This document shows positions 5,045-28,892 of a stretch of DNA of 64,000 nucleotides, piece after piece (the first letter of the stretch is position 1; every line of letters begins with the position of its first letter). The notes under the pieces were generated by a model. The model did no database searches and was not told the origin of the DNA. It saw nothing but the letters and a program-made list of their open reading frames with translations. The position numbers and the translations under genes are program-made. This DNA comes from Clostridia bacterium (GTDB taxonomy: Bacteria > Bacillota > Clostridia > Oscillospirales > Acutalibacteraceae): positions 248,001 to 312,000 of the forward strand of contig JAFRMR010000003.1 of assembly GCA_017430535.1 (NCBI GenBank). Reading direction: 5' to 3'.

Positions 5045-5076
5045 CACGGCAGGTCATCAGACCTGCCGTTCTTTTT
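5045..5076. terminator. Terminator between convergent genes
   Basis: Nine-bp stem ACGGCAGGT/ACCTGCCGT with a 6-nt loop and T-run on the + strand. The gene on the other strand ends at the same place. Confidence 0.85.
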
Positions 5077-6667: not shown

Positions 6668-6693
6668 TGAAAATCAGAATAATCTGTTAATAC

Positions 6694-6769
6694 CTCCGTC
6701 CTTTTGCCTGAGAGATTGGGGGGATAACCCTTTGCACCTTCGGCATCCATTAAATGGAATTCTCCGGAG
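6694..6769 (-). promoter_or_regulatory. Glycine riboswitch (single aptamer)
   Basis: The minus strand carries the gcvT-motif consensus. P1 arms are CTCCG (6765-6769 side) and CGGAG (6694-6698 side), the core is GCCGAAGGTGCAA, and then comes TCTCTCAGGCAAAAGGAC. Only one full aptamer is present; the stretch just upstream (6770-6805) can form extra pairings but lacks a second core. It lies in the leader of the AGCS symporter, about 100 bp from the start codon. Whether glycine turns the gene on or off is not settled by the sequence. Confidence 0.93.
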
Positions 6770-6838
6770 TTCGTCGGCATACAGTCGGAGCACATCCCCT
6801 TCTGCAAGCTTCATACGAACATATTTATTTTCCCGTGG

Positions 6839-9961: not shown

Positions 9962-9979
9962 TATTAACGGGAGAGAAAA

Positions 9980-12163
9980 ATGGAACTTATTAAAAAAGGC
10001 GTGAATATGCTTAAGAATGTAAAAACCTACTGGAAGAGCCCGCCTGAAGGCAAATATATGACTTTCAGGGAGATTTTTGCATATTCTGTAGGCGGATTCG
10101 GTGCTTATTCCGTTTTCACCATGGCTCAGGCGCTGCTGCTTTCCACCACCAATGTCATTATAGGCAACACAATCGGAATTCAGCCTATGCACATGTATGT
10201 GATGTACCTGATTTCCGTTATTACAAACATCCCCCTGACCATGGTCAGGGCAAATATGGTGGATAATGTAAAATATAAGGAAGGCAAATACCGCCCCTAT
10301 CTGCTGAGGATGGGCATACCCACCATAGCAATTTCTATACTTTTCGTTTATACGCCTTATGTTAAGGTTGCCTACATATGGCGCTGTATTCTTATTTTCA
10401 TTTACAATTTCGGGCTTCAGTTTTTCTATAATTTCTTTTATGATGCCTATGAAAATCTGATACATGTTCTTTCACCGAATTCACAGGAAAGAACAAATGT
10501 AACGGCAATAAAGAGTATGATTTACTCTCTCTCCCCCACCATAACAAATTTTGTTACTCCGCTTATAGCTGCAAAGGTTGCCAACGGCAATATGTATGAT
10601 CTGAAGGTTTACCAGTGGCTCTATCCCTTTATTGCAGTTACCGGCGTGGTGCTGCTTATACTGGTTTACTCAAGAACAGAGGAAAAAATCGTTATTGCTA
10701 AAACGCACCCCATGAAAATCAAATTCATGGATGCCCTGCGTGAGGTTGCAAAAAACAAGTATTTCTGGATAATCTCCCTTGCAGGCTGGCTTGGTTTCCT
10801 TGAAACCTGCACTTATGTTATTCTGCAATGGCTTTATAATTATGCGCACCTCTGCACACCGGAGCAATACTCGTTTATCACCCTTATAAGAGGCACCGCA
10901 TACAGCTTCGGTATGGTGCTGGCCCCCTTTGCCGTTAAAAAATGGGGCAAAAAGAAGGTGCTGATAGTTACAAATATTTTCAATGTATTTTTCCTTGCAA
11001 TGGTGTACCCCCTTATGGGTTCAATCTGGACCGTTCTTATGTGCATGTATTTCAACTCAATTGCAGATTCCTTTATTCTGGTAATAAACCCGGCCATACA
11101 GGCGGATATCAGAGACTATCAGCAGTATAAGAGCGGCGAAAGAATTGACGGCATGTTCGGCGCTGTTGCCATGATAGGTTCATTTGTTACAATGGCTACA
11201 AGTTCCGTGTTGCCCGCCGTATATGAAAAATACGGCATTTACTCCGGAAACGGCTATGAAAATATGTATGATATTCTTTATGACACAAACATTCTTTACC
11301 GCCTTGTGGGTGTGCTTGTAATTCTTTCGGCTGTAGGAGCCGCCCTTAATGTTATCCCCTATTTCTTCTATGATTTTACCGAGGTCAAGCAAAAGGCGGT
11401 TATAAAGATACTGCAGATACGGGCAATGTTTGAGGATTACGGCAACGGTGTGCTCAAGGATGAAGATATGGTAAGCACGGTTGATCTTATCCGCGGTGCA
11501 AAAGAGGACTATGCGCGGGGCAAGGCAGATATTGTGCTCCTCAGGAAAAACAAAGCGCAAAAATCCGAAATTAAAGCCGCTGTTAAAAACAATGAAGAAT
11601 TTGAAATAGCGGAAGCAGTGCTTAATGAGCTTGATTATTTCAATACCGAACCTGCCAAAGCAAGGCTCAGGTGGGCAGAGGGTATTATTGAAGCCGGTGT
11701 TGCCGGCATATCCGGAGTAACTGCCGATGCGCTTGCCGCAGCCAAAGCCCTGCCTAAAGGCACAAAAGATGAAAGAGAAATACGCAAGCAGGAAATAGCA
11801 GATGCCAAACTTGCTTTAAGATGTAAGAAGGCTGCTTTGAAATACTATTCAGGCAATATTCCCGATTTTAATGAAGAAAAGCTGAACAGCCTTTATGAAG
11901 AGGAAAAATCTCTTACGGAAAGGAAGTCTGCCCTTCTCAAATCAAAATCCGGCAAAAATGAAATCGCAGCTGTATCGGAACACCTCAGTGAAACAGCAAA
12001 GGCGATAAAAGAAATGCATACGGAATATCAACATTTCAGCGAAAGCACAAAGGTTTATACCGAAGCAAAGAAATATATTACAAAAGCTGAAAACTATGAA
12101 AAATTCGGAGAAATTGATGTTAAATACGATGCGCTTTCAAAGGCTGATGTCGCCGAGGAATAA
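9980..12163 (+). CDS. GPH-type sugar symporter with long C-terminal tail
   Basis: A 727-residue protein. Residues 1 to about 470 form a 12-helix MFS/GPH (glycoside-pentoside-hexuronide:cation) transporter, with KYKEGKYRPYLLRMGIP as the typical loop after helix 2-3. Related GPH proteins are about 450-510 residues. From about 473 to 727 there is a soluble, Lys/Glu/Ala-rich helical extension with likely coiled-coil stretches (for example EEEKSLTERKSALLKSKSG) and no membrane segment; its role is unknown. It lies between glycosidase genes, so it probably imports their substrate or product. The ATG is preceded by GGGAGAG. Confidence 0.88.
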   Translation: MELIKKGVNMLKNVKTYWKSPPEGKYMTFREIFAYSVGGFGAYSVFTMAQALLLSTTNVIIGNTIGIQPMHMYVMYLISVITNIPLTMVRANMVDNVKYKEGKYRPYLLRMGIPTIAISILFVYTPYVKVAYIWRCILIFIYNFGLQFFYNFFYDAYENLIHVLSPNSQERTNVTAIKSMIYSLSPTITNFVTPLIAAKVANGNMYDLKVYQWLYPFIAVTGVVLLILVYSRTEEKIVIAKTHPMKIKFMDALREVAKNKYFWIISLAGWLGFLETCTYVILQWLYNYAHLCTPEQYSFITLIRGTAYSFGMVLAPFAVKKWGKKKVLIVTNIFNVFFLAMVYPLMGSIWTVLMCMYFNSIADSFILVINPAIQADIRDYQQYKSGERIDGMFGAVAMIGSFVTMATSSVLPAVYEKYGIYSGNGYENMYDILYDTNILYRLVGVLVILSAVGAALNVIPYFFYDFTEVKQKAVIKILQIRAMFEDYGNGVLKDEDMVSTVDLIRGAKEDYARGKADIVLLRKNKAQKSEIKAAVKNNEEFEIAEAVLNELDYFNTEPAKARLRWAEGIIEAGVAGISGVTADALAAAKALPKGTKDEREIRKQEIADAKLALRCKKAALKYYSGNIPDFNEEKLNSLYEEEKSLTERKSALLKSKSGKNEIAAVSEHLSETAKAIKEMHTEYQHFSESTKVYTEAKKYITKAENYEKFGEIDVKYDALSKADVAEE

Positions 12164-15656: not shown

Positions 15657-16736
15657 ATGAAAAAAGCTCTTGCAATTATTCTCTGTTTAGTTCTTGCCGG
15701 CTCCTGCCTTGTTTGTCTTTCTGCCTGCGGAAAGCAGGATCTGACAAACAGCCAGTATCTCGGCACATGGAAGGCAACCTCAGCCAAATTCAAAGGTGAA
15801 GATGTTGATATCAAAGAAGCACTTAAAGATGACGAATTCATCGTAACTCTCAACGGCGACGGCACAGCAATAGTTTCCGATCCTGACGGCGACAAAACCG
15901 CAAACTGGAAAGAAACAAGCAAGGGTGCCAAGGTTAAGGGCGATGATATCAATGTTGTAATGTCCTGGCTCGGTGACAGCTTCGAGGTCTCAATTTTAGG
16001 TTTCCATCTTATCCTGACAAAGCAGGACGGCGAAGCAGCTGTAGCAGATGAAGCAAGAAAAATGATTATCAACAGCGAGCCCGTTGTTATCACTGCTGCA
16101 GAAAGCTTTGATAACGCAGGCGTTACAGAGTTTGTCTGCGATGCTACCGAAGCATACTCTTTCACCTCAAGCTCCGAAGATGTAAAGTGGGATATCTATG
16201 TGCTTGACAGCAGATTTGAAGACGGCGCAAGATATCTTGCTCAGGCAGAAACTCCGGCCCTTGAAGGCGACGGCACCCTCAAGATTGAAGAAGGCAAATT
16301 CATTTACGCTGTTTGCAGCGAAAATGCTTTTACCGCAGATGCCGCTTCCGACGCAACACTTACTATTGATTATGCAGCCGAAGAAGAAGCAGCTGCAGCA
16401 GATGAAGCAAGAAAAATGATTATCAACAGCGAACCCGTTGTTATCACCGCTGCAGAGAGCTTTGAAAACGCCGGTGTTACAGAATTTGTCTGCGATGCTA
16501 CAGAAACATACTCTTTCAAATCAAGCTCCGAAGATGTAAAGTGGGATATCTATGTGCTTGACAGCAGATTTGAAGACGGCGCAAGATACCTTGCTCAGGC
16601 TGAAAAGCCCGCGCTTGAAGGCGACGGCACCCTTAAGATTGAAGAAGGCAAATTCATCTATGCCGTTTGCAGCGAAAACGCCTTTACCGCAGATGCCGCA
16701 TCCGATGCAACACTTACCATTGATTACGCAGCATAA
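15657..16736 (+). CDS. Lipoprotein with two near-identical modules
   Basis: A 359-residue lipoprotein with a signal peptide ending in the lipobox LSAC (Cys at about 25). Residues 30-125 form an N-terminal domain (YLGTWKATSAKF, then DGDKTANWKE) like the lipocalin-like domains of Clostridia lipoproteins. Two modules of about 112 residues follow, starting ADEARKMIINSEPVVITAAE and ending DATLTIDYAA. They are almost identical and joined by an EEEAAA linker. The function is unknown; the modules look like beta-sandwich surface domains. It has its own promoter and terminator. AAGGAG precedes the ATG. Confidence 0.85.
   Translation: MKKALAIILCLVLAGSCLVCLSACGKQDLTNSQYLGTWKATSAKFKGEDVDIKEALKDDEFIVTLNGDGTAIVSDPDGDKTANWKETSKGAKVKGDDINVVMSWLGDSFEVSILGFHLILTKQDGEAAVADEARKMIINSEPVVITAAESFDNAGVTEFVCDATEAYSFTSSSEDVKWDIYVLDSRFEDGARYLAQAETPALEGDGTLKIEEGKFIYAVCSENAFTADAASDATLTIDYAAEEEAAAADEARKMIINSEPVVITAAESFENAGVTEFVCDATETYSFKSSSEDVKWDIYVLDSRFEDGARYLAQAEKPALEGDGTLKIEEGKFIYAVCSENAFTADAASDATLTIDYAA
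16044..16733 (+). repeat. Tandem duplication inside lipoprotein gene
   Basis: Copy 1 is about 16044-16376 and copy 2 about 16398-16733, with a 354-bp period (118 codons). The copies are nearly identical at DNA level, so the duplication is recent or kept alike by gene conversion. Confidence 0.9.
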
Positions 16737-16781: not shown

Positions 16782-16940
16782 TCGACTTATATCATCAAGT
16801 CCCCAAACCAATATGCTCAATTATACAACGCTTGGGCGGTGTGATTGCACTCTGCCGAAGGTTTACTAACACTGATGCATTCACAAATGGAGAGCCCTTG
16901 CGGATGCTACGCAACCTAACCCTAATTAATTTTAAAAATG
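16782..16940. other. Non-coding spacer, no feature recognised
   Basis: No supported gene. A TATAAT-like box on the minus strand (about 16813-16818) resembles the one near 22087, but no -35 partner is convincing. Confidence 0.4.
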
Positions 16941-17216
16941 TCAGCTGTTCAAATCTGTGCTTCTACCGCAGTTTTGACACACACTGATGTCATATAGTTT
17001 AAGATGAAGTAATCGACCGCAGTGTGGGCACCGCACCTTTCTTATCATCCATATAATTGAAAACGTCAATAAAACTCCTGCGAGGCAATATATGATAATA
17101 CTCTTAATACCTTCGAAGGTATTTAGGCACGCGGTTCCTATGCCCACACAAATGAATCCCGCGAACATCACTGCGTATCCTATTGCTCTCGCCAATCTCG
17201 GATTTATATTATTCAT
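16941..17216 (-). CDS. Small membrane protein with zinc ribbon
   Basis: A 91-residue protein with two hydrophobic helices (about 10-30 and 36-58) and a C-terminal CPHCG...CQNCG pair that forms a likely zinc ribbon in the cytoplasm. Not recognised as a named family. A purine-rich AGGATAGG lies ahead of the ATG. It stands just outside the tRNA-Ser repeat that marks the left end of the island. Confidence 0.6.
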   Translation of the reverse strand: MNNINPRLARAIGYAVMFAGFICVGIGTACLNTFEGIKSIIIYCLAGVLLTFSIIWMIRKVRCPHCGRLLHLKLYDISVCQNCGRSTDLNS

Positions 17217-17344
17217 CAGTGGCCCATCCTATCCTTTCTATTACTACATAAATTATATCATCTATCACCCCAATGTCAAACCTTGTTGAATAGTCTAGAA
17301 TTAATGAGTAAGCTAAATATTAAAGCCTTTGATATAAAAAACAT

Positions 17345-17391
17345 AAAAAAGCGGAAACAAATTATGACATTGTATCATAACTTGCTTCCGC
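17345..17391 (-). terminator. Terminator after the tRNA-Ser remnant
   Basis: On the minus strand an extended stem (GCGGAA/TTCCGC outer part plus a TTATGA/TCATAA inner part) is followed by a T-run at 17345-17350. It probably terminated the tRNA before insertion. Confidence 0.75.
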
Positions 17392-17392
17392 C

Positions 17393-17450
17393 TTGGCGGA
17401 GAGTTAGGGATTCGAACCCTAGGTACATCTCTGTACACAGCATTTCGAGT
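17393..17450 (-). repeat. Left attachment repeat: tRNA-Ser 3' half remnant
   Basis: 58 bp identical to 22374-22431. It holds the CCA end, T-arm, variable arm and anticodon arm up to the anticodon loop of tRNA-Ser(CGA), then diverges. A repeat ending in the anticodon loop is the usual footprint of tyrosine-recombinase integration. Confidence 0.9.
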
Positions 17451-17775
17451 CGTTAACCTTTCTGGTCTTTTGTGCTTTTTTGGTGGTCTTTTGAGGCCTC
17501 CGCTCAGAGCCGTTCGTGCCATATTGTTCAAGGAATCCGGGATTTTTTCTGAGGAGAATCCGCAAGCTCTTGAAAATCGAATATTTCGCCATTTTTCAGT
17601 TTTTCCCGCCATTTTTGCTGTTTTTCCCGCATATTCGCGAGAAAATACGCGAGAAAAAATGCACTTTTTTACCTTTTTCTGAACGCTGATATTTGCTCCT
17701 GTTTGAATTTATGTTCAGGAAAACTGTGTTATGAAAAAATCAAGTGCAATTTCATATAACGTTAAACGTCAATTA
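17451..17775. other. Island left margin, no intact gene
   Basis: 325 bp between the attachment repeat and the first island gene. It contains short repeated motifs (TTTTTCCCGCCATTTTT type at 17590-17630, then GCGAGAAAATACGCGAGAAAA). No integrase frame is recognisable, although this is where one usually ends. It may be integrase arm-type binding sites or decayed sequence. Confidence 0.4.
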
Positions 17776-19353
17776 TTAAAACAACCAGTAACTGCTCTTT
17801 TTTGAAGGCTTTTTTCTGTCTGAAGATTGGCTATGATCACGCTTGCCAAAAAACGGATCTTCAGCGCTTACTGTTGGATCAATCCAGTCAGCTTTGGCTT
17901 TTGCCCATTTTACCCACTCTTTGGTCTGCTCGTCTATTTCGGATTTAGATTCAACAGCAGAGATATAATTACGTATCATTGTTGCCAGATTATAATCCGT
18001 TGCTTCATTTTCCAATGCTTCAAATCTGTCAATTTCATCGTTGTATCTCTCTCTAATCTGCTCTTTTCTTTTTCTCTCTTCTTCGGCTTTTCTTTCTGCT
18101 TCTTCTCTTTCGAGTCTGTATTTTTTTACTACTTCAGATTCGGCATATAAAGCAAGTAATATTTCGCCTACTCGGTTTTCAATGCATTTGTTCTCGCTGT
18201 CTCTAAACAATCCGCATTGAGGCACATTGAAAGTTAGCTTCCCAGTTGGTATATAATCATATTTTCTAATATTGGGTTTCCAAGCATACGAATATGAAGC
18301 TTTTCTTCTTTGATATTCTTCCCATTCTTTTGTTTCTTTGGCTGTCATAACATGATCCGTACTTGTTTGACTTTCCGTTATATAAAAGTAAACTTTCTCG
18401 TCGCGTATAGTCATAGAAAGATCATCATTGATTCCACCGCCTAACGACTCAACCGCATTATATAATGCATCTAATATGAGGTATATTCTTGGAAGTATGC
18501 TTTCAGATACGCCAATCCAAAGTTCTGGTTCTCCATCAGGAATCCTGCGATATCTGTCTTTTTTGAGTGTTGCATAATCATCTCGTGGATGATTAACTTT
18601 CCACGCTTTATACTTTGCTTTATGGCTTCTTAAAACTGTATGCAGTTTTTTGCTTTCATCTGCAACACTCATATTCATTGCGATTTCAATTAATTCATCT
18701 CTCTCTTCGTCAGTTAAAAAGGAAAGCGATTTATCTGCTACATTATTTATAGCTTTTTCTTCGGCAGACATTATTTTGCTTCCAATGATTACATCTTTTC
18801 CAGTATGTTTGGAAAGAGGAGTCTTTTTTACTTTCTGCCCAGCAGCTTTTTTCGCCCAGTAACCTCTTGGGGGAACTGGAATATCAAGACTTTTACAAAC
18901 CTTATGGATCATCACATCGGACACTCCGTATTTAGCGGATACTTTTGTGCATGGTTCTTCCCAAACTTCTTCGTACAGGACATTTCTTTCATATCTGTTA
19001 GGGCTTGATGAGTTTTTAGGAGTAATTAAATCCTTTTCTCCTATCGGAGAAGCTTTTGATGCTTGCTTTTCAAATAATACAGCGAACGCTCCGGCTTTCA
19101 ATTCTGATTTTGTTCTAAAATCTATAACAACTTCATTTTCGTCTGAGTCAGGGAGTGGTATTGTTTCTACTGGTTTTCCAACAGCTTTATTGCCCCAATA
19201 AGAATGAGGCTGAATCGGAATGTCATATTCTTCGCAGGCTTCTTTCAACTTGCCATAAGGTACATCGTATTTTTTCGAAACCTGAGATAAAGAGGTTTCC
19301 CATATTTCTTTATAAAGTTCGACCCTATTGAATTTAATTGTCTTATATGGCAT
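17776..19353 (-). CDS. Island protein with duplicated RGYWAKKAAG-type module
   Basis: A 525-residue protein of unknown function. GGAGGTGAC just upstream sets the ATG at 19353. The N-terminal half holds two copies of a DNA-binding-like module. Copy A is about residues 7-62 (LYKEIWETSLSQVSKKY, then IPIQPHSYWGNKAVGKP); copy B is about 117-172 (LYEEVWEEPCTKVSAKYGVS, then IPVPPRGYWAKKAAGQK). Each looks like a helix-turn-helix followed by a basic hook. The C-terminal half is charged, with a coiled stretch (EREEAERKAEEERKRKEQ). Proteins with this module are known, uncharacterised, from bacterial islands. The frame is open upstream to 19486, where a slippery site could fuse it to the next gene. Confidence 0.75.
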   Translation of the reverse strand: MPYKTIKFNRVELYKEIWETSLSQVSKKYDVPYGKLKEACEEYDIPIQPHSYWGNKAVGKPVETIPLPDSDENEVVIDFRTKSELKAGAFAVLFEKQASKASPIGEKDLITPKNSSSPNRYERNVLYEEVWEEPCTKVSAKYGVSDVMIHKVCKSLDIPVPPRGYWAKKAAGQKVKKTPLSKHTGKDVIIGSKIMSAEEKAINNVADKSLSFLTDEERDELIEIAMNMSVADESKKLHTVLRSHKAKYKAWKVNHPRDDYATLKKDRYRRIPDGEPELWIGVSESILPRIYLILDALYNAVESLGGGINDDLSMTIRDEKVYFYITESQTSTDHVMTAKETKEWEEYQRRKASYSYAWKPNIRKYDYIPTGKLTFNVPQCGLFRDSENKCIENRVGEILLALYAESEVVKKYRLEREEAERKAEEERKRKEQIRERYNDEIDRFEALENEATDYNLATMIRNYISAVESKSEIDEQTKEWVKWAKAKADWIDPTVSAEDPFFGKRDHSQSSDRKKPSKKSSYWLF

Positions 19354-19463
19354 ATTGTCACCTCCTTCGCAGTTTTTATTAATCAATGATTTGTAGAATT
19401 CAGTTGTTGCTTTTGCTTCTTCAATCGCTTTTTGTTGCTGTTCTTTTGCTTTTTTAACCTCCT

Positions 19464-19790
19464 TTACTCTTGATCGCCACGCAATAAAAAACTTAAATCC
19501 TTTTTCATTTCTGAAAACTCTTCAATTATTTTTGTAAGATTGTTTTCAATGCCCTGCACCTGAATTTCAGATATCTTGCCGTGTTTATATGCAATCAATC
19601 TCTCTGGAATAATGCTATAGGACCAGCTGTCTGTATATCGATTTTCATTATGTACTGCAAACCCGATAGGAAGCTTTTCCTGCCTCATTCCGTAACTTAC
19701 GGCAACGGGAGAAATGCCGAGGTAATCTGCAGCAATTTTACAGGTTATTTTGCTCATTGAACGGATTTCATCATCTGTATATTTACTCAA
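19464..19790 (-). CDS. Small HTH-type island regulator
   Basis: A 108-residue protein. AAGGAGGTGAG places a TTG start at 19790. Residues about 10-40 (KITCKIAADYLGISPVAVSY) form an excisionase/regulator-like helix-turn-helix, followed by GMRQEKLPIGFAV and a region ending in IIPERLIAY. This pattern is common in small DNA-binding proteins of Clostridia mobile elements. The tail (IEENLTK-like to KKDLSFLLRG) looks helical. A T_TTT_TTA heptamer lies in frame at 19485-19491, a few codons before the stop. Confidence 0.7.
   Translation of the reverse strand: MSKYTDDEIRSMSKITCKIAADYLGISPVAVSYGMRQEKLPIGFAVHNENRYTDSWSYSIIPERLIAYKHGKISEIQVQGIENNLTKIIEEFSEMKKDLSFLLRGDQE
19485..19491 (-). promoter_or_regulatory. 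Candidate -1 frameshift site T_TTT_TTA
   Basis: The heptamer is read in the 0 frame as TTT TTA inside the HTH gene. A -1 slip opens a stop-free frame of 44 codons that runs into the ATG of the 525-residue protein. Those codons encode a polar helical stretch (KEVKKAKEQQQKAIEEAK), typical of real protein. An AAAGGAGG lies about 25 nt downstream. Confidence 0.4.
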
Positions 19791-19904
19791 GGAACTCACC
19801 TCCTTTCCCAAAACGTTGAAAATAAATATTGAATAATACAATATTGCCAAAAAACCGAGCTGATTGTAACGTTCAGCTCGGTTTGCTTTCTGCTTCTTGC
19901 TTTT

Positions 19905-20108
19905 CTAAGTGCCATTGGTTTCATAAGGACTTAACTCCGTTTGAAAAAAAATAATCCCCATTTTTTCTTTCAGGTCACCGAGGGACTTATCATACTGTGC
20001 TTTGCTTATTGCATTGCGCTCAAGAAATAAATTCAGCGTGTGCTTTTGACGGAGAAACAGATCAATTTTCTTCTCTTCTGGAGTTAATGAGGTATAGTCT
20101 TTCAGCAT
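19905..20108 (-). CDS. Small mobile-element protein
   Basis: A 67-residue acidic protein with FLERNAISKAQYDKSLGDL, a signature seen in many short uncharacterised proteins carried by mobile elements of Firmicutes. Likely helical; no known reaction. It begins 14 bp after the stop of the 70-residue gene without a clear ribosome site, which suggests translational coupling. Confidence 0.6.
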   Translation of the reverse strand: MLKDYTSLTPEEKKIDLFLRQKHTLNLFLERNAISKAQYDKSLGDLKEKMGIIFFQTELSPYETNGT

Positions 20109-20122
20109 ACTTATTAATATAT

Positions 20123-20335
20123 TTAAACCTTGGATATTAAGTTTGGTATTTTTTTTATTGCTTCCTTTGCGATAGGGACTAGTTTCGGGCCATATTTAAC
20201 CCCAATTGCCACTGTCGCTGATGCAACAGCTCCAAATTTAGTAGCGTTTGCATTATCGATTGTACAATCAATACAATACTTTCTTTCCCTTTCTAGATTT
20301 GAAAGAGGGCAATTACATTTCTGACATCTATTCAT
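20123..20335 (-). CDS. Small zinc-ribbon protein with hydrophobic tail
   Basis: A 70-residue protein that starts with a four-Cys knuckle (CQKCNCPL, then YCIDCT). A Gly/Ala-rich hydrophobic segment (about 35-52) and a basic end follow. Possibly membrane-associated; not recognised. GGAGAATAAA precedes the ATG, 1 bp after the stop of the 335-residue gene, so the two are in one transcript. Confidence 0.55.
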   Translation of the reverse strand: MNRCQKCNCPLSNLERERKYCIDCTIDNANATKFGAVASATVAIGVKYGPKLVPIAKEAIKKIPNLISKV

Positions 20336-20336
20336 T

Positions 20337-21344
20337 TTATTCTCCTAAGTTGCTGTATACACAATCAATTTTTTTAGTTTCGTTATATGACAAAATTTTG
20401 TTTGCTGTGTTGCAGAAATCTATAGTAAACTTATTCTGCTTTTTAGACTCTGGCAAAGCTTCATTCATTAACATAGTTTTTTCTATTAAATCGTTATCAC
20501 GAATCTCATCTGCAAATTGTTTTACAACAGTATTGTACTTTTCTTTTTCATAATTAATGTGACATACTTCACAAGATATTAAAATCATTTTTAAAATGAA
20601 AGAAATATCCTCGATAGCTTCAAATGATAATTGATGCAATTCATTTCGTATGTTTGGTTTATATGCCCACATATTTGTTTTTTTATTTGTTTCATCCATT
20701 AGCTTTTGAACTTTTGAATTAAAATCACGCAACAGTTTCCTTTTTATGGTAGTTGCTTGCTCGCCAATGCTTTGTAGCGAGGTGGTCCTTTGTTCAAAAT
20801 CGGTAATCATTTTAGCCTGTTCAAAATTTTGCAAAACGCCATCAGCTTCAGCTAACAGATCATTTCTAATCTCCACATGTAAACTCTTTACTGCTTTTTC
20901 AAGATTTGATATTTCTTTAAGTATTTTTTGTAAAGCCAAGTTTGTGCTTAATGCTGCCAAAGATGATCCAATATCAACCAAATCCATAGGTTTCAGTCTA
21001 ACTTGCGCAACTACTGTTTTGCTGTCTCTAATTGTTGGGAGTATTTCACCATTTTTAGCAATATTAAATCTAAATTCTCCGGTTTTTAGTTTTTCTTTCA
21101 AATAATCATTAATATCAGCTACCAAAACATTGTTTTCCTGGAATGATTTTTTTATGGCATCGGCTAAATTGGGCAATGCATACTTTATTCTTTCAAAATC
21201 TGAAAAAAAGTCAAAGATGTCTTTGCTTGTATCTGGCCAATCAATAGTAAACCATTCATCTTCGTTTGTTAGATCATCATTCGGACAAACTATTATCTTA
21301 GGATAATGCAAAAGTTTTCTATGCTGAACAAAGAGGAAAAGCAA
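20337..21344 (-). CDS. AT-rich unknown island protein, 5' end doubtful
   Basis: A 335-codon frame, clearly richer in A/T than the chromosomal genes around. The middle (KTGEFRFNIAKNGEILPTI, then KTVVAQVRLKPMDLVDIGSS) and the following coiled-coil stretch (LQKILKEISNLEKAVKSLHV) resemble a family of uncharacterised bacterial proteins with a small beta domain plus long helices. The only early start codon is a TTG lying inside the T-run of the neighbouring gene's terminator, with no ribosome site, and the first in-frame ATG is after residue 110. The natural 5' end has probably been lost at a junction near 21345-21380. Confidence 0.5.
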   Translation of the reverse strand: MLFLFVQHRKLLHYPKIIVCPNDDLTNEDEWFTIDWPDTSKDIFDFFSDFERIKYALPNLADAIKKSFQENNVLVADINDYLKEKLKTGEFRFNIAKNGEILPTIRDSKTVVAQVRLKPMDLVDIGSSLAALSTNLALQKILKEISNLEKAVKSLHVEIRNDLLAEADGVLQNFEQAKMITDFEQRTTSLQSIGEQATTIKRKLLRDFNSKVQKLMDETNKKTNMWAYKPNIRNELHQLSFEAIEDISFILKMILISCEVCHINYEKEKYNTVVKQFADEIRDNDLIEKTMLMNEALPESKKQNKFTIDFCNTANKILSYNETKKIDCVYSNLGE

Positions 21345-21368
21345 AAAATGACTCCCGAAAACCGGGAG
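21343..21368 (-). terminator. Terminator of the 185-residue secreted protein
   Basis: CTCCCG/CGGGAG stem with a 5-nt loop, then TCATTTTTT on the minus strand. Confidence 0.85.
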
Positions 21369-21384
21369 CCATGATGATTAAAGA

Positions 21385-21942
21385 TTAAACTTTCGGAGAC
21401 AGAGAGCTGAAGAAAAGACCGATTTTTTCAAAGAGATTTTTGAAGAAAGCGATTATTCTCTGGAAAATGTTGAGTTCGGGTTCTTCTTCCGCATCACCGG
21501 GAACGGAATCAAACGGCTTGCCTGTTGAGGGATCAAGTGAGTCGTCCTTTGCAACGATAAAAGATATTTCCGCAAGATTTGTTCCTACGCTGCCTATCTG
21601 CTTTTCGCCGTTTACCCAAAACTCGCAGTCTTCGGAAATATGATATCCGGCGTTTTCAGCGAATTTGATTCTCACGCGGTACTGAATGCCTTCAATATAG
21701 GCGTCGCCTGCAGCGGGATGAACGGCATTATATTCTTTATCCATATAGTAAATACTGTCTATTTTTGCTGAGTAAGCATCAGAATCGCCGACAGGCAGTG
21801 ACTTGAATTCAACTTTGTCTCCTGCTTTGGGATAAGCGAATGTTGCTTCGGCTTTGACGATTTCGTTTCCTGCAGCAAACGCGGGAACAGCCATAGCCAT
21901 AACAAATATTGCCGAAAGAATAACAGCGAGAATATTCTTCAT
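21385..21942 (-). CDS. Secreted protein with amphipathic C-terminal tail
   Basis: A 185-residue exported protein with signal peptide residues 1-23 (cut after AFAA). The mature domain (about 30-130) looks beta-rich, with FAYPKAGDKVEFKSLPVGD and YHISEDCEFWVNG. The latter resembles small repeats of Clostridia surface proteins. After an acidic linker comes LNIFQRIIAFFKNLFEKIG, the same motif that closes the protein at 1-520. Codon use matches the chromosome rather than the AT-rich island genes. Strong AAGGAG site. Function unknown; the tail may bind the envelope. Confidence 0.75.
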   Translation of the reverse strand: MKNILAVILSAIFVMAMAVPAFAAGNEIVKAEATFAYPKAGDKVEFKSLPVGDSDAYSAKIDSIYYMDKEYNAVHPAAGDAYIEGIQYRVRIKFAENAGYHISEDCEFWVNGEKQIGSVGTNLAEISFIVAKDDSLDPSTGKPFDSVPGDAEEEPELNIFQRIIAFFKNLFEKIGLFFSSLSPKV

Positions 21943-22228
21943 ATTTTTTGTCTCCTTATATTGATTTTATGTATTAATGATACACTATTTGATACTGAAA
22001 ATCAACTGTTTCCTTAAGAAGAACAAGCTGTTAATCATTACAAATCAACTGAAATAACCCCATAGCAACCTGTTGCTATGCGCAATTATACACCGTTCTG
22101 GTTAAAATTTCCTCATGATTAATACTGAATATACTAGAATATTTGTTTATGCCATTAACCCATCTTGCACACAAATACCCCCATCTCGCACACGATTACT
22201 TTTAGTAAAAACCTCAATATCACGAAAT
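21943..22228. other. Non-coding spacer with small repeats
   Basis: No supported gene. It holds a 9-bp palindrome (22061-22080, CATAGCAAC and GTTGCTATG) and, on the minus strand, a direct repeat GTGTGC-AGATGGG (about 22162-22194). Confidence 0.4.
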
Positions 22229-22259
22229 CCCCGGCAGAATTGCTCTGTCGGGGGTTTTT
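22229..22259 (+). terminator. Orphan + strand terminator
   Basis: Ten-bp stem CCCCGGCAGA/TCTGTCGGGG, 5-nt loop, then GTTTTT. No + strand gene precedes it, so it is a remnant or ends an unseen RNA. Confidence 0.7.
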
Positions 22260-22330
22260 CTTTTAGCTGTATTCGTGTACAAGAAGTCGCGAAGCCGCAT
22301 ATATCAAGGATTGTGAAAACGGGTGGGGTG

Positions 22331-22371
22331 CAAAAAGAAAGAACCCCAATTGTATCACAATTAGAGTTCTT
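22331..22371 (-). terminator. Terminator of tRNA-Ser
   Basis: On the minus strand, stem AAGAAC/GTTCTT with an inner AATTGT/ACAATT and a T-rich tail follows the CCA end at once. Confidence 0.75.
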
Positions 22372-22373
22372 AT

Positions 22374-22431
22374 TTGGCGGAGAGTTAGGGATTCGAACCC
22401 TAGGTACATCTCTGTACACAGCATTTCGAGT
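22374..22431 (-). repeat. Right attachment repeat, within intact tRNA-Ser
   Basis: Perfect 58-bp partner of 17393-17450; the repeats are 4981 bp apart. Here the sequence continues into the complete tRNA 5' half. Confidence 0.9.
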
Positions 22432-22462
22432 GCTGCACCTTCGACCACTCGGACAACTCTCC
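22375..22462 (-). tRNA. tRNA-Ser, anticodon CGA
   Basis: 88 nt on the minus strand, starting GGAGAGTTGTCCGAGTGG with encoded CCA. Anticodon stem CAGCA/TGCTG with loop CTCGAAA gives anticodon CGA. The long variable arm (GTACAGAGATGTAC) is typical of serine tRNAs, and the T-arm has GGTTCGAATCC. A consensus promoter lies 14 bp upstream. The 3' half is duplicated at 17393, marking it as an integration site. Confidence 0.95.
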
Positions 22463-22475
22463 GTAATTCCCGATA

Positions 22476-22504
22476 ATTTTAACAAAAGGATAACCCTTTG
22501 TCAA
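22476..22504 (-). promoter_or_regulatory. Promoter of tRNA-Ser
   Basis: On the minus strand TTGACA (22499-22504), 17-bp spacer, TAAAAT (22476-22481). Confidence 0.8.
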
Positions 22505-22524
22505 GAAATAAACGGGAGTAATTA

Positions 22525-24708
22525 TTATAAGTAAAGCTTGCCGTTTTCAGCTGTTATTTCAATAGAGTTGAATATATTTTCGCTTGAATTGCCTATAAGC
22601 AGGCAATGCTTACCATTATGGAGGCCGTAATCCATAGAAAGATTCCAGTAATAAAATGCTTCGGCATCCAATGAAATTGTTTCTGTTTTCTTTTCCCCTG
22701 CTTTCAGCTCAATCTTTTTATATGCTTTTAATTCCTTTACCGGCCTTACAACTTCACAATTACAGGAACTGAGATAAACCTGAACAACTTCAGCGCCGTC
22801 ATAAGCGCCAGTGTTTAAAATATCAAATGAGATATTTACACCGTCGGCGGTGAGCTCAGCTCTGATATTATCAACAGCAAAGCTCGTATAGCTGAGGCCA
22901 TAGCCGAATGGGAATAATGGCTTACCGTCATTATCGCAATAAGAATATCCCCTGCCGGATGGTTTATATGAATAATTCAGTGGAAGCTGGCCTGCAGATT
23001 TCGGAACTGTAACGGGAAGCTTTGCGGAAGGATTGGTTTCGCCGAAAAGAATCTCCGCAAGTGCTTTTGCGCCCTGCTCGCCGGGATACCAGGCTTCAAT
23101 CACAGCCGGAGCCGATTCTATCCAGGCAGTCATATCAACGGGAGCTCCGTTTTCAAGTATAACAATAGTATTTGGGTTCGCTTTGCAAAGGCGGATAATA
23201 GACTGCTCCTGATTATCCGTAATAACCTGCTCGGCATTATCAACTATAAAACCGGCATCATCTTCTTTATTTCTCTGAACTGAAACCGAGGGAAGGCGCA
23301 AATCGCTTCTGTCACTCCCCTCGCCCTCAAGAATGGATGTGATATATAAAACAGCATCACAGGACGGAGCATATTTTTCAATATCGTTACTGCTGTAAAA
23401 AACAACCTCGGCGCAGCCGGATAAATACTCCGTTAAGGCCTGAAACGGTGTGGGTGCGTCTTCACCCTGCCAGGGCGCATTATATGGGCCGGAATAATTT
23501 GAACCGATAGGAATAAGATCTGCGCTTTGGCCGAACACGCCGACTTTTTTTACATTGCTTTTTTTCAGCGGTAAAATTCCGGAGTTTTTCAGGAGAATAA
23601 TTGTTTCGCGAGCGGCGGCAAGGGCGAGATTTCTGTGCTCTTTGCAGCGGACAATCTCATCCGCTTTTTCGGGGCTGCAAAACGGATTATCAAAAAGCCC
23701 GAGACGAAATTTTACGGTAAGAACCCGCAGAACATTTTTATTGAGTTCCTCTTCGCTGATAAAGCCCTTTTCAACAGCTTCCTTGACATAATCAAACCAG
23801 TCAAAAGGCAGAATAACATCAAGGCCGGCTTTAAGCGCCATAGCCGCTGCTTCGGCTTCTGAAGAAGCAAGATTATGCGCAGAATAAATGCCTTCTACTC
23901 CGTTATAATCTGAAACTACAAAACCATCAAAACCCCACTCTTTGCGGAGAATATCGGTAAGAAGGTGTTTATTGGCGCTACAGGGAATACCATCCCAGCC
24001 GTTATAGGCAGCCATAACAGACTGTGCGCCTGCGTCGAAGCAGGCTTTGAAAGGCGGCAAAACAGTTTCTCTCATTGTTCTTTCGCTTGTTTCGGAATAA
24101 TTGGAATCACGGCCGCCGAATGCGTAGTTATCCGCGTAATGCTTTGGCGTGGCAACAACTCCGTTTTTTTCAAGACCGCGGCACATAGCCGCACCCATAT
24201 CGGAGGAAAGCTTAACATCCTCACCATAGGTTTCAACGGTTCTTCCCCAGCGGCAATCCCTTGCAAGGTTCACAACAGGCGAAAAAACCTGGCGCACACC
24301 GGCGGCAGAGCATTCTTTGCCTATAACATCAGCAACCTGCTCAACAAGGCCCGGATTAAATGATGAAGCAAGGTTTATGGGCTGAGGAAAATTGGTGCAC
24401 ATACCCCACTGAGCTCCGTGAAGAGCCTCGCCGTTCTCAATAGGCGGTATATGATGAGGCTGCGCTTCAATGCTGAGCATTACATCCCTGTTGATTCTTT
24501 CCGTTACCTGAGACGGTGATGCGGGCACACTGCGACCCTGGTGCATAAAATGCCCCGGGTTGCGGTAGCTGCCGAACATAGGATTCCTTTTTGTTTCATA
24601 ATCCTCATCAACATCAAATATCATTTCGGATGTTACCTGATATATTTTTTCATCAAGGGATAATTCCTGAAGCAGCTCATAAGCACGCTCTTCGGGAGTT
24701 TTTTTCAT
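22525..24708 (-). CDS. GH3 beta-glycosidase
   Basis: A 727-residue GH3 enzyme (beta-glucosidase or beta-xylosidase type). The ATG at 24708 with AGGTG upstream is preferred to the GTG at 24717. Order: barrel domain with CRWGRTVETYGED and TPKHYADN; the nucleophile Asp267 in GFVVSDYNGVEGIY; an alpha/beta sandwich starting ILLKNSGILPLKKS; then a fibronectin-III-like C-terminal domain (GAYDGAEVVQVYLS). No signal peptide, so it hydrolyses imported oligosaccharides. The substrate cannot be told. It follows the alpha/beta-hydrolase gene by 24 bp. Confidence 0.95.
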   Translation of the reverse strand: MKKTPEERAYELLQELSLDEKIYQVTSEMIFDVDEDYETKRNPMFGSYRNPGHFMHQGRSVPASPSQVTERINRDVMLSIEAQPHHIPPIENGEALHGAQWGMCTNFPQPINLASSFNPGLVEQVADVIGKECSAAGVRQVFSPVVNLARDCRWGRTVETYGEDVKLSSDMGAAMCRGLEKNGVVATPKHYADNYAFGGRDSNYSETSERTMRETVLPPFKACFDAGAQSVMAAYNGWDGIPCSANKHLLTDILRKEWGFDGFVVSDYNGVEGIYSAHNLASSEAEAAAMALKAGLDVILPFDWFDYVKEAVEKGFISEEELNKNVLRVLTVKFRLGLFDNPFCSPEKADEIVRCKEHRNLALAAARETIILLKNSGILPLKKSNVKKVGVFGQSADLIPIGSNYSGPYNAPWQGEDAPTPFQALTEYLSGCAEVVFYSSNDIEKYAPSCDAVLYITSILEGEGSDRSDLRLPSVSVQRNKEDDAGFIVDNAEQVITDNQEQSIIRLCKANPNTIVILENGAPVDMTAWIESAPAVIEAWYPGEQGAKALAEILFGETNPSAKLPVTVPKSAGQLPLNYSYKPSGRGYSYCDNDGKPLFPFGYGLSYTSFAVDNIRAELTADGVNISFDILNTGAYDGAEVVQVYLSSCNCEVVRPVKELKAYKKIELKAGEKKTETISLDAEAFYYWNLSMDYGLHNGKHCLLIGNSSENIFNSIEITAENGKLYL

Positions 24709-25652: not shown

Positions 25653-27080
25653 ATGAGAATATCGGGATTAAAAAACAAGTTTATAGGTGACAGGCAGTTT
25701 TACAAAAAGGCGCTTGCCATTGCTGTACCGATTATGGTGCAGACCGGCATAACCAATTTTGTAAGCCTGCTTGATAATATTATGGTTGGCCGTACGGGCA
25801 CGGAACAGATGAGCGGGGTTGCAATAGTCAACCAGCTTTTATTCGTATTTTACCTGTGCATTTTCGGCGGACTTGCCGGGGCAGGTATATTCACTGCCCA
25901 GTATTTCGGAGCAAAGGACAATGACGGGGTACGCACAACATTCCGTTATAAGCTCTGGCTGGGTGGAATTATTACCGGCGCCGCAGTGATTGTATTTGTG
26001 CTTTTCGGCGACAGACTGGTGCAGATGTACCTTAACGGCAGCAACGACGGCGGAGACCCGGCCGCAGCGCTTAAATACGCAATGGATTATATGAAGATAA
26101 TTCTGCTGGGGCTGCCTGCCTTTGCAGCAGTGCAGATTTATTCAAACACCCTGAGGGAATGCGGTGAAACGGTAATACCCATGAGGGCCGGAATTGCGGC
26201 TGTTGCGGTAAATCTTGTATTTAACTATCTGCTGATATACGGCCACCTGTTCTTTCCTGCAATGGGGGTGCGGGGCGCCGCAACGGCAACGGTAATGTCA
26301 AGATTCTGCGAAATGGCTATTGTGGTAATATGGGCCCATACTCACAGGGAAAAGTGCCCATACCTGACCGGCGTTTATAAAAAGCTTACCGTGCCTTTTG
26401 ACCTTATCAAAAAATTCACAATTACAGGCTCTCCCCTGCTTATTAACGAGGCATTGTGGTCCGCCGGTATGGCAATGTTGACCCAGTGTTACTCCTTAAG
26501 AGGGCTTAATGTTGTGGCAGGGCAAAACATATCCAGCACTGTAAGCAATGTTTTCAATGTAGTGTTCTTTGCCCTCGGCGATGCCTTGGCCATAATTGCA
26601 GGCCACAGCCTGGGAGCAGGCAAGCTGAAGCAGGCAAAAGATGAGGTTTATAAAATAATTGCTTTTTCCGTTTTTACGGCAACCTGCGTGGGGATTGTAA
26701 TTTTTTCCACTTCTTCGCTTTTCCCGATGATTTACAATACAAACCCCGAAGCAAAAAAGATTGCAGCCCATTTCCTTATGGCACAGGCAGTATTCACACC
26801 CCAGATAGGGCTTCTGCACACCTCATATTTTACCATACGCTCCGGAGGAAAAACATTTGTTACATTCCTGTTTGACAGCGTTTTCATGTGGGTTGTCAGC
26901 GTGCCGCTTGCTTTTGTTCTGAGCCGTTTTACCGGGCTATATGTAATATGGATATTTGCCGCAGTGCAGATGGCGGACTGGATTAAATGCGCAATAGGCA
27001 TAATCCTTGTAAAAAAAGGAATCTGGATAAAAAACATTGTAAAAGAGGAAGATACAGATGAAAACCGGGCTTGTACTTGA
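25653..27080 (+). CDS. MATE-family efflux transporter
   Basis: A 475-residue MATE exporter with 12 predicted helices. Seen: AIPVAVPIMVQT-like start (ALAIAVPIMVQTGITNF), LLDNIMVGRTGTEQMSGVAI, and the second-half repeat INEALWSAGMAM with FFALGDALAIIAGHSLGAG. It exports organic cations or drugs in exchange for Na+ or H+; the cargo is unknown. The 3' end overlaps the patatin gene by 23 bp, showing coupling. Confidence 0.93.
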   Translation: MRISGLKNKFIGDRQFYKKALAIAVPIMVQTGITNFVSLLDNIMVGRTGTEQMSGVAIVNQLLFVFYLCIFGGLAGAGIFTAQYFGAKDNDGVRTTFRYKLWLGGIITGAAVIVFVLFGDRLVQMYLNGSNDGGDPAAALKYAMDYMKIILLGLPAFAAVQIYSNTLRECGETVIPMRAGIAAVAVNLVFNYLLIYGHLFFPAMGVRGAATATVMSRFCEMAIVVIWAHTHREKCPYLTGVYKKLTVPFDLIKKFTITGSPLLINEALWSAGMAMLTQCYSLRGLNVVAGQNISSTVSNVFNVVFFALGDALAIIAGHSLGAGKLKQAKDEVYKIIAFSVFTATCVGIVIFSTSSLFPMIYNTNPEAKKIAAHFLMAQAVFTPQIGLLHTSYFTIRSGGKTFVTFLFDSVFMWVVSVPLAFVLSRFTGLYVIWIFAAVQMADWIKCAIGIILVKKGIWIKNIVKEEDTDENRACT

Positions 27081-27906
27081 AGGCGGCGCAATGCGGGGTA
27101 TGTTTACCTGCGGAATAATTGATATTTTTATTAATAATGATATAAAATTTGACGGTGTTGTGGGTGTTTCTGCCGGAGCTATTTTCGGGGTAAACTATCC
27201 CTCAAAGCAGGCAGGCAGAGTTATAAGCTATAACCTTGAATACATTAAAGATAAAAGATATATGGGCCTTGGTTCCCTGATAAAAACCGGAGACCTTATC
27301 AATAAGGATTTTGCTTATTACACCGTTCCCCTTGAATATTACCCATTTGATTTTGAAACATACCATAATTCGGGAATACCGTTTTATGCCTGCGTAACTA
27401 ATATGGAAACAGGGCAGCCGGAATACTATCAGATAAATGATTTTGATTTCGGTATGGAGGTGCTCAGGGCTTCCGCCTCAATGCCTTTTGTTACACGCCC
27501 TGTTATGCTTAACGGCAAGCCCTTCCTTGACGGCGGAGTTGCGGACAGCATACCATTCAGGTTTATGCTTGACAAGGGATATGACAGGCTTGTGGTAGTG
27601 CTGACAAGGGATATTGATTATGTTAAAAGCCCTATGCCACCGCTTCCCATAAAGCTGAAATACCGGAAATACCCGGCGTTTGCCGAAAGACTTATTAACA
27701 GGCATATTGAATATAATGAATCCATCGCTCAGCTCAAAGAGCTTGAAAAAGAAGGCAAAGTATTTATTATAAGGCCCTCTGTTCCGCTGGGAATAGGAAG
27801 AACGGAAAGAAATATTGAAAAAATGAAAGCGACTTATAGCCGGGGCCTGACAGACGGCGCGGCTATACTGGAACAGATGAAAGCTTTTATGGCATCGGAA
27901 GGATAA
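27058..27906 (+). CDS. Patatin-like phospholipase
   Basis: A 282-residue patatin-fold acyl hydrolase. Seen: the oxyanion loop LEGGAMRGMFTCGI at the N-terminus, the nucleophile elbow GVSAGAIFGVNY (Ser about 41), and the catalytic Asp in FLDGGVADSIPF. The family cleaves lipid acyl chains in the cytoplasm or at the inner membrane face. It is of the YjjU/RssA-like short type. It starts inside the end of the MATE gene with GAGGAAG as ribosome site. Confidence 0.92.
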   Translation: MKTGLVLEGGAMRGMFTCGIIDIFINNDIKFDGVVGVSAGAIFGVNYPSKQAGRVISYNLEYIKDKRYMGLGSLIKTGDLINKDFAYYTVPLEYYPFDFETYHNSGIPFYACVTNMETGQPEYYQINDFDFGMEVLRASASMPFVTRPVMLNGKPFLDGGVADSIPFRFMLDKGYDRLVVVLTRDIDYVKSPMPPLPIKLKYRKYPAFAERLINRHIEYNESIAQLKELEKEGKVFIIRPSVPLGIGRTERNIEKMKATYSRGLTDGAAILEQMKAFMASEG

Positions 27907-27912
27907 ACCGGA

Positions 27913-28872
27913 ATGAATAATTTAACAATAAATCAGATTCTCGGCGCGGATTTAAGGGTAAGTGAACTGAGCCCGGTAATAAAACCAGGCAACAGTTCCT
28001 TTGTGGCCGCAGACCCTTCTCTGCTGACCCCCGATGAAAGCCCGGACGGGCTCTGGCATATATTCTTTCACACTACATTCGGCGTAAGGCATGCGGTAAG
28101 TAAAGACGGCATTAACTTTGAAAAATCCGAAAAATTTTTCGGCAGAGCAATGAGACCGGATATAAACCGTATTGGCGGCAGATATTACCTCTTCTATGAA
28201 AGAACAAGACCGATTATTTTTAACGGACTTAATGTGCTGAATCTGGCAAAGTGGAAATCGGAAATATATGTTTCCGAAAGTGAAGACCTGAAACAGTGGA
28301 GCGAGCCAAAACCCGTTATTACCCATACGAGAGAATATGAAGAGAGCGAAAGAGGAATTTCCATCTCCAACCCCTTTTATTTATGTGATAACGGTATTTC
28401 ACGGCTTTATTATTCCTGCGGGCTCACCTATGTTGAGGACTGCGGGTTCTGCGAACCCACATACATAAGCTATGCGGAAAGCAAAAGGGCTGACGGGGAT
28501 TATGTATCGGCAGAGAGCCCTGTTATAAAACCGGACCCCGAAAGCATATACACCAATATATGCAGCGGGTGCCTTAAGGTTTACAAGCTTAAGGACGGCT
28601 ACCTCGGAATACAGAACGGTATTTACAGACAGGATGGTAAAAGCAAATCGGCAATAATGGCGCTCTCATCCCGGGACGGTCTGAATTTCAGATTTGAAAA
28701 AATACTTATTGAACCTGACGGAAATGAAAACAGCTGGATGGGGCAGTATGTTTACGCCAGCCATCTTGTAAAACACGGCAATGAACTGCGCCTTTATTTC
28801 AATGCCCGCAACAAATCCGATATGCTCAGGGGAAGAGAGTGTATAGGATTTGCTTCGGCAGAAATCCGATAA
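27913..28872 (+). CDS. GH43-like beta-propeller glycosidase
   Basis: A 319-residue protein with the five-bladed propeller pattern of GH43/GH32/GH117-type enzymes: FVAADPSLLTPDES, WHIFFHTTFG, RPDINRIGGRYYLFYER, GISISNPFYL and LRLYFNARN. The Asp in ADPS is the likely catalytic base. The other carboxylates cannot be placed with certainty, so the family number is open. No signal peptide. It sits 6 bp after the patatin gene, in the operon that continues to the ABC exporter. Confidence 0.65.
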   Translation: MNNLTINQILGADLRVSELSPVIKPGNSSFVAADPSLLTPDESPDGLWHIFFHTTFGVRHAVSKDGINFEKSEKFFGRAMRPDINRIGGRYYLFYERTRPIIFNGLNVLNLAKWKSEIYVSESEDLKQWSEPKPVITHTREYEESERGISISNPFYLCDNGISRLYYSCGLTYVEDCGFCEPTYISYAESKRADGDYVSAESPVIKPDPESIYTNICSGCLKVYKLKDGYLGIQNGIYRQDGKSKSAIMALSSRDGLNFRFEKILIEPDGNENSWMGQYVYASHLVKHGNELRLYFNARNKSDMLRGRECIGFASAEIR

Positions 28873-28892
28873 AAAAATATAGGGACATAAAA

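Follow-up and report, generated by a model that had tools for sequence, protein, structure and literature searches.

Elements inserted in tRNA genes

The tyrosine integrase of Lactobacillus phage mv4 acts on a tRNA-Ser target through a core that lies near the anticodon, and phage satellites, whether phage-inducible chromosomal islands (PICIs) or P4-like, combine an integrase with recognisable genes for phage interference or packaging. The element considered here is an island of 4.9 kb in the tRNA-Ser(CGA) gene of a Clostridia bacterium of the Acutalibacteraceae (assembly GCA_017430535.1), lying within a stretch of 64,000 nucleotides of contig JAFRMR010000003.1 which, at its full length, is called the window below. 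It differs from the mv4 system in that no phage gene is recognised in it. A Tycheposon, in the extract of PMC10872708 that describes it, has a border tRNA and a tyrosine recombinase within the element, whereas the island has the tRNA and no recombinase.

The closest described system is the cis-mobilizable element (CIME), taken here as an extract of PMC5704250 defines it. CIMEs are a known kind of genomic fossil and the island is probably a further case, a decayed integrative element that has retained its attachment (att) sites in tRNA-Ser(CGA). The likeness is apparent in several respects. The island keeps att sites, as sequence, at both ends of a tRNA-gene insertion; it is without integration and transfer genes, as judged by a PF00589 search of the window and by comparison of six open reading frames (ORFs) with Pfam and NCBIfam; it lies at a hotspot occupied in congeners by related integrase-bearing elements; and its derivation from an integrative and conjugative element or an integrative and mobilizable element (IME) is seen in the cargo and junctions when these are set against elements of genomes G012, G018 and G066. 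It differs from a CIME in that no tandem partner for mobilisation in cis is seen, and in that more than one element type is represented among its ends and cargo. A puzzling island without an integrase becomes a case in which the lost parts can be named from relatives and the junctions placed to the base.

Boundaries of the island

The 3′ half of tRNA-Ser(CGA) is duplicated as an exact 58-bp repeat, with copies at 17393-17450 and 22374-22431, both on the minus strand, that flank the island. The identity is far above chance expectation and stops at both sides, such that not one base more is shared on either. The right-hand, proximal copy (attL-like) forms the 3′ half of the complete target gene, tRNA-Ser(CGA) at 22375-22462 on the minus strand, with which Rfam agrees and which is the sole family returned by an Rfam scan of the island; the left-hand, distal copy (attR-like) is the half alone. 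When the 2.4-Mb genome was probed with the repeat, the full 58 bp were found only at these two places, and two short matches besides, of 27 and 33 bases, lie one in tRNA-Ser(GGA) and one in tRNA-Ser(TGA).

Each copy has its own terminator hairpin, the original one downstream of the distal copy, at about 17345-17394, having a folding energy of −28.5 kcal/mol (z −8.9) and the one after the tRNA −18.5 kcal/mol (z −4.6). The latter belongs to the tRNA-proximal element end at 22180-22373 (no strand assigned), which is 93% identical to contig C37 of the congener G019 and whose terminator now serves the tRNA. A preliminary description of the window, made from the letters alone, had proposed a perfect repeat of the tRNA 3′ half with a terminator for each copy, and both observations stand exactly as made.

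Relatives of the distal end and of the cargo

The sequence next to the distal copy, at 17451-17753 on the plus strand, has homologues among the element ends of two congeners, G018:C14 (78% identity over 210 bp) and G010:C24 (72% identity over 234 bp), when compared with approximately 1 Mb of loci fetched from genomes other than its own; the likeness to these two elements extends over the distal att copy and the adjoining 230-300 bp. The next match has an E value of 0.007 and corresponds to the arm-like region of elements in G012 and G018 that carry a tRNA (see below). In both G018 and G010 a gene of 216 amino acids starts at the matching place, the two products being 60% identical to each other. 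The G018 protein contains an HTH_17 domain and is followed by an integrase of 349 amino acids, while the G010 contig stops short of the integrase position; the label xis-like that is used here for the 216-amino acid gene refers to its position and its HTH domain. The alignment of the window with these elements takes in the ribosome-binding site, then the ATG at 17731 with some seven codons, and ends at 17753; its score across the start codon is 86, as opposed to 28 for the best of 500 shuffles. From this ATG the reading frame of the window closes after 24 codons. The window keeps only about seven codons of the xis-like gene and nothing of the integrase which follows in G018. The distal end also contains GCGAGAA repeats at 17637 and 17649, and in G007:C46 a tRNA 3′ half lies beside a fragment of an xis-like gene (62% over 40 residues).

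At the other side of the island, the segment from 21304 to 22097 (794 bp, minus strand) is 95-97% identical to mobilizable elements in G012:C230, G018:C54 and G066:C87. Those in G012 and G018 are IMEs with a MobA/MobL relaxase and a tyrosine integrase, and share with the island a cargo of 95-96% identity in the same order and orientation to tRNA-Ser(CGA). Their gene order is an AAA_25 gene (RepA-like in our labelling), a DUF3847-like gene (below the Pfam cut-off), a secreted-protein gene, the relaxase gene, a small gene resembling that of an excisionase, the integrase gene and the tRNA; G066:C87 displays only the part from the AAA_25 gene through the relaxase gene. The window keeps the final bases of the DUF3847-like gene together with the secreted-protein gene (21385-21942), in the orientation towards the tRNA that G012 and G018 show, but the relaxase, xis-like and integrase genes that stand between cargo and tRNA in those genomes are missing, with sharp junctions at 21304 and 22097. 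The distance from cargo to tRNA is accordingly 433 bp in the window as against 3,479 bp in G012. A 19-bp piece at the right edge of the cargo (22077-22095) is 89% identical to one in the left flank (16812-16830); the piece looks like an intergenic repeat and could have acted as a breakpoint.

The secreted-protein gene had been regarded in the preliminary description as host-like, a view that has to be given up, since the gene and its 794-bp surroundings are rather the cargo of mobile elements in three congeners. Its family occurs in 16 of the 45 genomes of the genus, its own included, at identities of 94-95% in three congeners, 71% in one, 65% (partial) in one and 33-53%, sometimes over short stretches, in ten, and its own genome contains a paralogue of 34%.

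Two rival accounts bear on these junctions. The first is that the cargo was pasted from a G012-type element by homologous recombination among resident elements, rather than left behind by deletion of one or two elements. This patchwork would suit the difference in identity to congeners between the cargo and the flanking DNA (64-82% for the latter, among the listed matches of at least 100 bp) and the right edge of the cargo, which in G066 is placed almost to the same base with different DNA beside it; the position and orientation of the cargo with respect to the tRNA are nevertheless those of G012 and G018, which a deletion explains without a second step, and the account is considered unlikely. 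The second is an assembly error at the 58-bp repeat that joins two unrelated stretches. Of the 29 congener sites displayed, 7 do lie on contigs that break off less than 700 bp downstream from this tRNA, which indicates that the site is hard to assemble, as expected if repeats break assemblies. The contig of the window, however, runs for 581 kb, and its junctions recur independently, the distal copy with its arm in G018 and G010 and the tRNA with the proximal end in G019, such that an error of this kind is extremely improbable.

Gene content of the island

The island is rich in AT, the GC content of the six 1-kb intervals from 17001 to 23000 being 32-40% as compared with 40-48% in the other 58 intervals of the window. 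The ORFs considered, of 67-536 amino acids, lie on the minus strand throughout, and none gave a match to Pfam or NCBIfam above the curated cut-offs; hence no integrase or relaxase is found among them. Five of the six were also submitted to PADLOC, without a match, and a search of solved structures returned nothing useful. From the distal end inwards there are an ORF of 536 amino acids (17776-19386), relatives of which adjoin the 128-amino acid gene in G044 and in locus L085; one of 128 amino acids (19464-19850), which matches phrog_6058 (1.6e-13); two small ORFs of 67 (19905-20108) and 70 amino acids (20123-20335) without a family match; and one of 335 amino acids (20337-21344), which matches phrog_31650 (2.3e-13). 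Both PHROGs families are of unknown function, and these two matches, together with a weak HNH match of the 536-amino acid ORF (5.5e-4), are what is found in place of the interference or packaging genes of a phage satellite. For the 70-amino acid protein, kinship with a small zinc-ribbon protein of L096 was considered and set aside, as no alignment was obtained.

In the genome as a whole, a profile search for PF00589 located three places, none of them in the window, and no genome-wide search was made for serine recombinases; the single MobA/MobL relaxase is on another contig (C10:209668), other relaxase families being covered by the ORF scans alone. The stretch of AT-rich genes without a known family is as first described. 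That no integrase, relaxase or phage gene can be recognised holds for whole genes, but not for the edges of the island, where short traces of mobility-linked genes are present at 17731-17753 and over about 33 bp from 21305.

The cargo junction removes the N-terminus of the 335-amino acid gene, the first 14 or so codons of which are now supplied by the cargo segment. A zinc-ribbon motif opens the frames of all six relatives that were read, two of them nearly identical, and is absent from the protein in the window. Relatives of this protein are found in 8 of 394 genomes of the order, its own included, and restriction or abortive-infection genes adjoin five of the six. In the type I systems of G426 and G354 the relative is flanked by hsdM and hsdR; in G139 and G192 it follows a D12 methyltransferase and an AlwI-type nuclease, the placement in G192 being by sequence likeness to G139 only; in G349 it follows an AIPR gene; and in G409 it is found among genes of housekeeping appearance. 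The 128- and 536-amino acid genes are adjacent to each other in both outside loci that were found. In G044 (L084:9721-17402) they are preceded by a type I restriction system (hsdM/S-like and hsdR), of which hsdR is immediately upstream, and the same locus includes a RepA-like gene, while in L085 no restriction gene is seen near them by eye. On account of these neighbours the cargo of the island is regarded as defence-linked, by neighbourhood only; the island differs from a restriction–modification system, as its ORFs include no methyltransferase or nuclease gene in Pfam, NCBIfam or, for five of them, PADLOC. As a separate observation, the type I restriction locus of G426 (L095:2674-7108) contains two near-identical tyrosine recombinase genes, one of them tested against Pfam, and repeated ORFs of 394 amino acids, and looks like a phase-variable hsdS array.

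Origin of the island

The preliminary description had also read the repeat as the footprint of integration by a tyrosine recombinase, and had offered a decayed element as one possible source, the other being a satellite that the integrase of another element moves. The footprint and the decay are both supported by relatives, in that congeners have integrase-bearing elements at the same tRNA, two of which share the end sequence of the island, and in that its junctions line up with these more complete elements. From its anatomy, the history of the island would begin with recombination, by a tyrosine integrase, between an element and the tRNA gene, around the core TTTCGAG in the anticodon loop, whereby the 58-bp copy of the element would have restored the tRNA and displaced the original 3′ half and its terminator to 17393. 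Comparison with relatives suggests that a gene order of the G012/G018 type then lost its relaxase, xis-like and integrase genes, so that 433 bp now separate cargo and tRNA, and that everything beyond about codon 7 of another xis-like gene was lost at the distal end, together with the integrase that follows in G018. What is left would be cargo, partly of the sort that neighbours restriction–modification genes and itself cut at one end. Integration and transfer genes thus appear to be gone from between two retained att sites, and the island would be unable to integrate or transfer alone; if its sites work, it could move only through the integrase of a related element, either in tandem (cis) or elsewhere (trans).

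Several points weigh against this account. The distal end and the cargo are known from two element types, so that one deleted element, a collapsed tandem and a recombinant cannot be told apart; a single ancestor is not proven, and a collapsed tandem fits equally. The G018:C14 element is known only as far as its contig end, and the proximal end is matched, in the sequences compared, by G019 alone, the element of which is unassembled. Among the compared genomes, one for each species, there is no true empty site. The secreted-protein family has, by sequence comparison, distant members in 12 other congeners as well as the paralogue in its own genome. The att sites are known as sequence, which establishes them neither as working nor as dead. 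Lastly, the G066 match ends at nearly the same right-hand base as the window although the adjoining DNA differs, which argues against pure deletion, and the cargo segment may for this reason be a cassette with its own edge.

An alternative to decay is that the island is a living satellite, selected in its present form and moved in trans by integrases that other elements at tRNA-Ser(CGA) supply. Its two ends and its core do share conserved sequence with other elements, and congeners do have integrases at this tRNA. Set against this, no integrase is seen at tRNA-Ser(CGA) in its own genome, the 335-amino acid gene is truncated at the junction, and no second copy of the island was found. The 536-amino acid protein has a relative in one other of the 60 genomes searched, and none in a congener; genome contigs contain one relative, at 33%; plasmids provide 37 records with relatives below 60% identity; and viral contigs provide none for this protein or for the 335-amino acid protein. 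Of the other products, the 128-amino acid protein has no relative in plasmids and a single record in phages (31.5%), and the 335-amino acid protein none in phages. A living satellite is, on these grounds, quite unlikely. Plasmid relatives of the integrase of the G012 element are all below 60%.

The three PF00589 genes of the genome itself were examined as possible helpers. They lie beside tRNA-Pro, beside tRNA-Met and, for the third, without a tRNA in the 3.5 kb examined. The integrase on C17 is 69% identical to that of G018:C14; its end sequences differ, however, and the 20 kb examined contain its tRNA-Pro only once, and for these reasons it is not proposed as a helper.

The tRNA-Ser(CGA) site across the genus

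The site itself is an active integration site in the genus, which matters more than the island. A tRNA probe matched 42 of the 45 genomes, the one under study included, at E ≤ 0.001, some of them only through other serine tRNAs, and the survey of the site covered 40 stretches around probe matches in 32 congener genomes. In G012, G018, G062 and G066 a tyrosine integrase adjoins tRNA-Ser(CGA), and G030 has a C-terminal piece of one where a contig ends. Empty and filled sites can be compared in part. The G011 homologue of the window gene at 27913-28872 is found some 50 bp from the tRNA on its downstream side, with a single 3′ half, while the distance between tRNA and homologue is about 3 to 13 kb in G017, G014, G022 and G033. 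Because this neighbour has its place across the tRNA in the window, on the opposite side, the G011 comparison shows a hotspot and not the empty form of the locus.

Four congeners (G012:C230, G018:C54, G007:C28 and G005:C393) have a host tRNA-Ser(CGA) that is interrupted at the core TTTCGAG and left with a stranded 5′ half. This half is followed by 140-161 bp, which contain arm-like repeats in at least three of the four, then by a complete tRNA-Ser(CGA) and a tyrosine integrase, the latter interrupted by the contig end in G005:C393. The elements, with the complete tRNA beside the integrase, are located at L066:5827-7424, L065:1050-2605, L068:9088-10823 and L075:5229-5880. The island differs from the IMEs of this group, G012:C230 and G018:C54, in having restored the tRNA 3′ half, whereas they carry a complete second tRNA and strand the 5′ half of the host gene; it is also without a relaxase, xis-like gene and integrase of its own. 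The carried tRNA of G012 and G018 is 87% identical to the tRNA of the window. That of G007 and G005 has another body, the nearest among other congeners being tRNA-Ser(CGA) of G035 (89%) and G034 (83%).

Fragments of the 5′ half were found in 7 of the 45 genomes, namely these four and G024, G060 and G064. In G007 the host 3′ half stands by itself on a different contig, and an intact native copy was not matched, while G018 has an intact tRNA-Ser(CGA) on another contig, by reason of which a mixture of strains or a second copy is possible in that genome. A literature search with narrow terms, mostly outside subscription journals, returned no report of IMEs that carry a whole replacement tRNA. These tRNA-replacing elements are possibly more important than the island. 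Four congeners hold them and, if the substitute tRNA is used, a decoding gene would become exchangeable between species by site-specific recombination. A further reading, which is improbable, is that the island remains mobile and, free of an integrase of its own, carries defence-linked genes by exploiting a genus-wide contest for tRNA-Ser(CGA), being moved by the integrases of residents; in that contest some elements would restore the tRNA 3′ half, and others would cut the host tRNA at the anticodon and put a complete one of their own in its place.

The genes that flank the island are syntenic with those of congeners, from which it follows that the island is bounded by host DNA. On the left, the genes at 8486-12163 have homologues of 72-74% on G018:C14, about 25 kb hostward of the distal copy, and a repeat gene at 15657-16736 recurs in G066:C11, 6 kb to the left of the copy. 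On the right, the genes at 27058-30620 have homologues of 70-79% on G060:C66, no more than about 10 kb from the tRNA 5′ half. The gene at 15657-16736 resembles that of a secreted lipoprotein and has an internal duplication of about 110 residues, to both parts of which the G066:C11 relative aligns.

In six loci (L050, L053, L055, L058, L059 and, less clearly, L079) the last 16 or so bases of the tRNA are copied directly, as judged by eye, in a TGGCGGAGAGTTAGGG-like piece just downstream of tRNA-Ser(CGA), and an inverted, TTCGAATCC-like piece of the T-arm, about 130-150 bp further on, faces this copy of the tRNA end; Rfam returned no family at the facing pieces. Elsewhere in the window a glycine riboswitch is found at 6686-6777 on the minus strand, upstream of the gene at 5076-6596.

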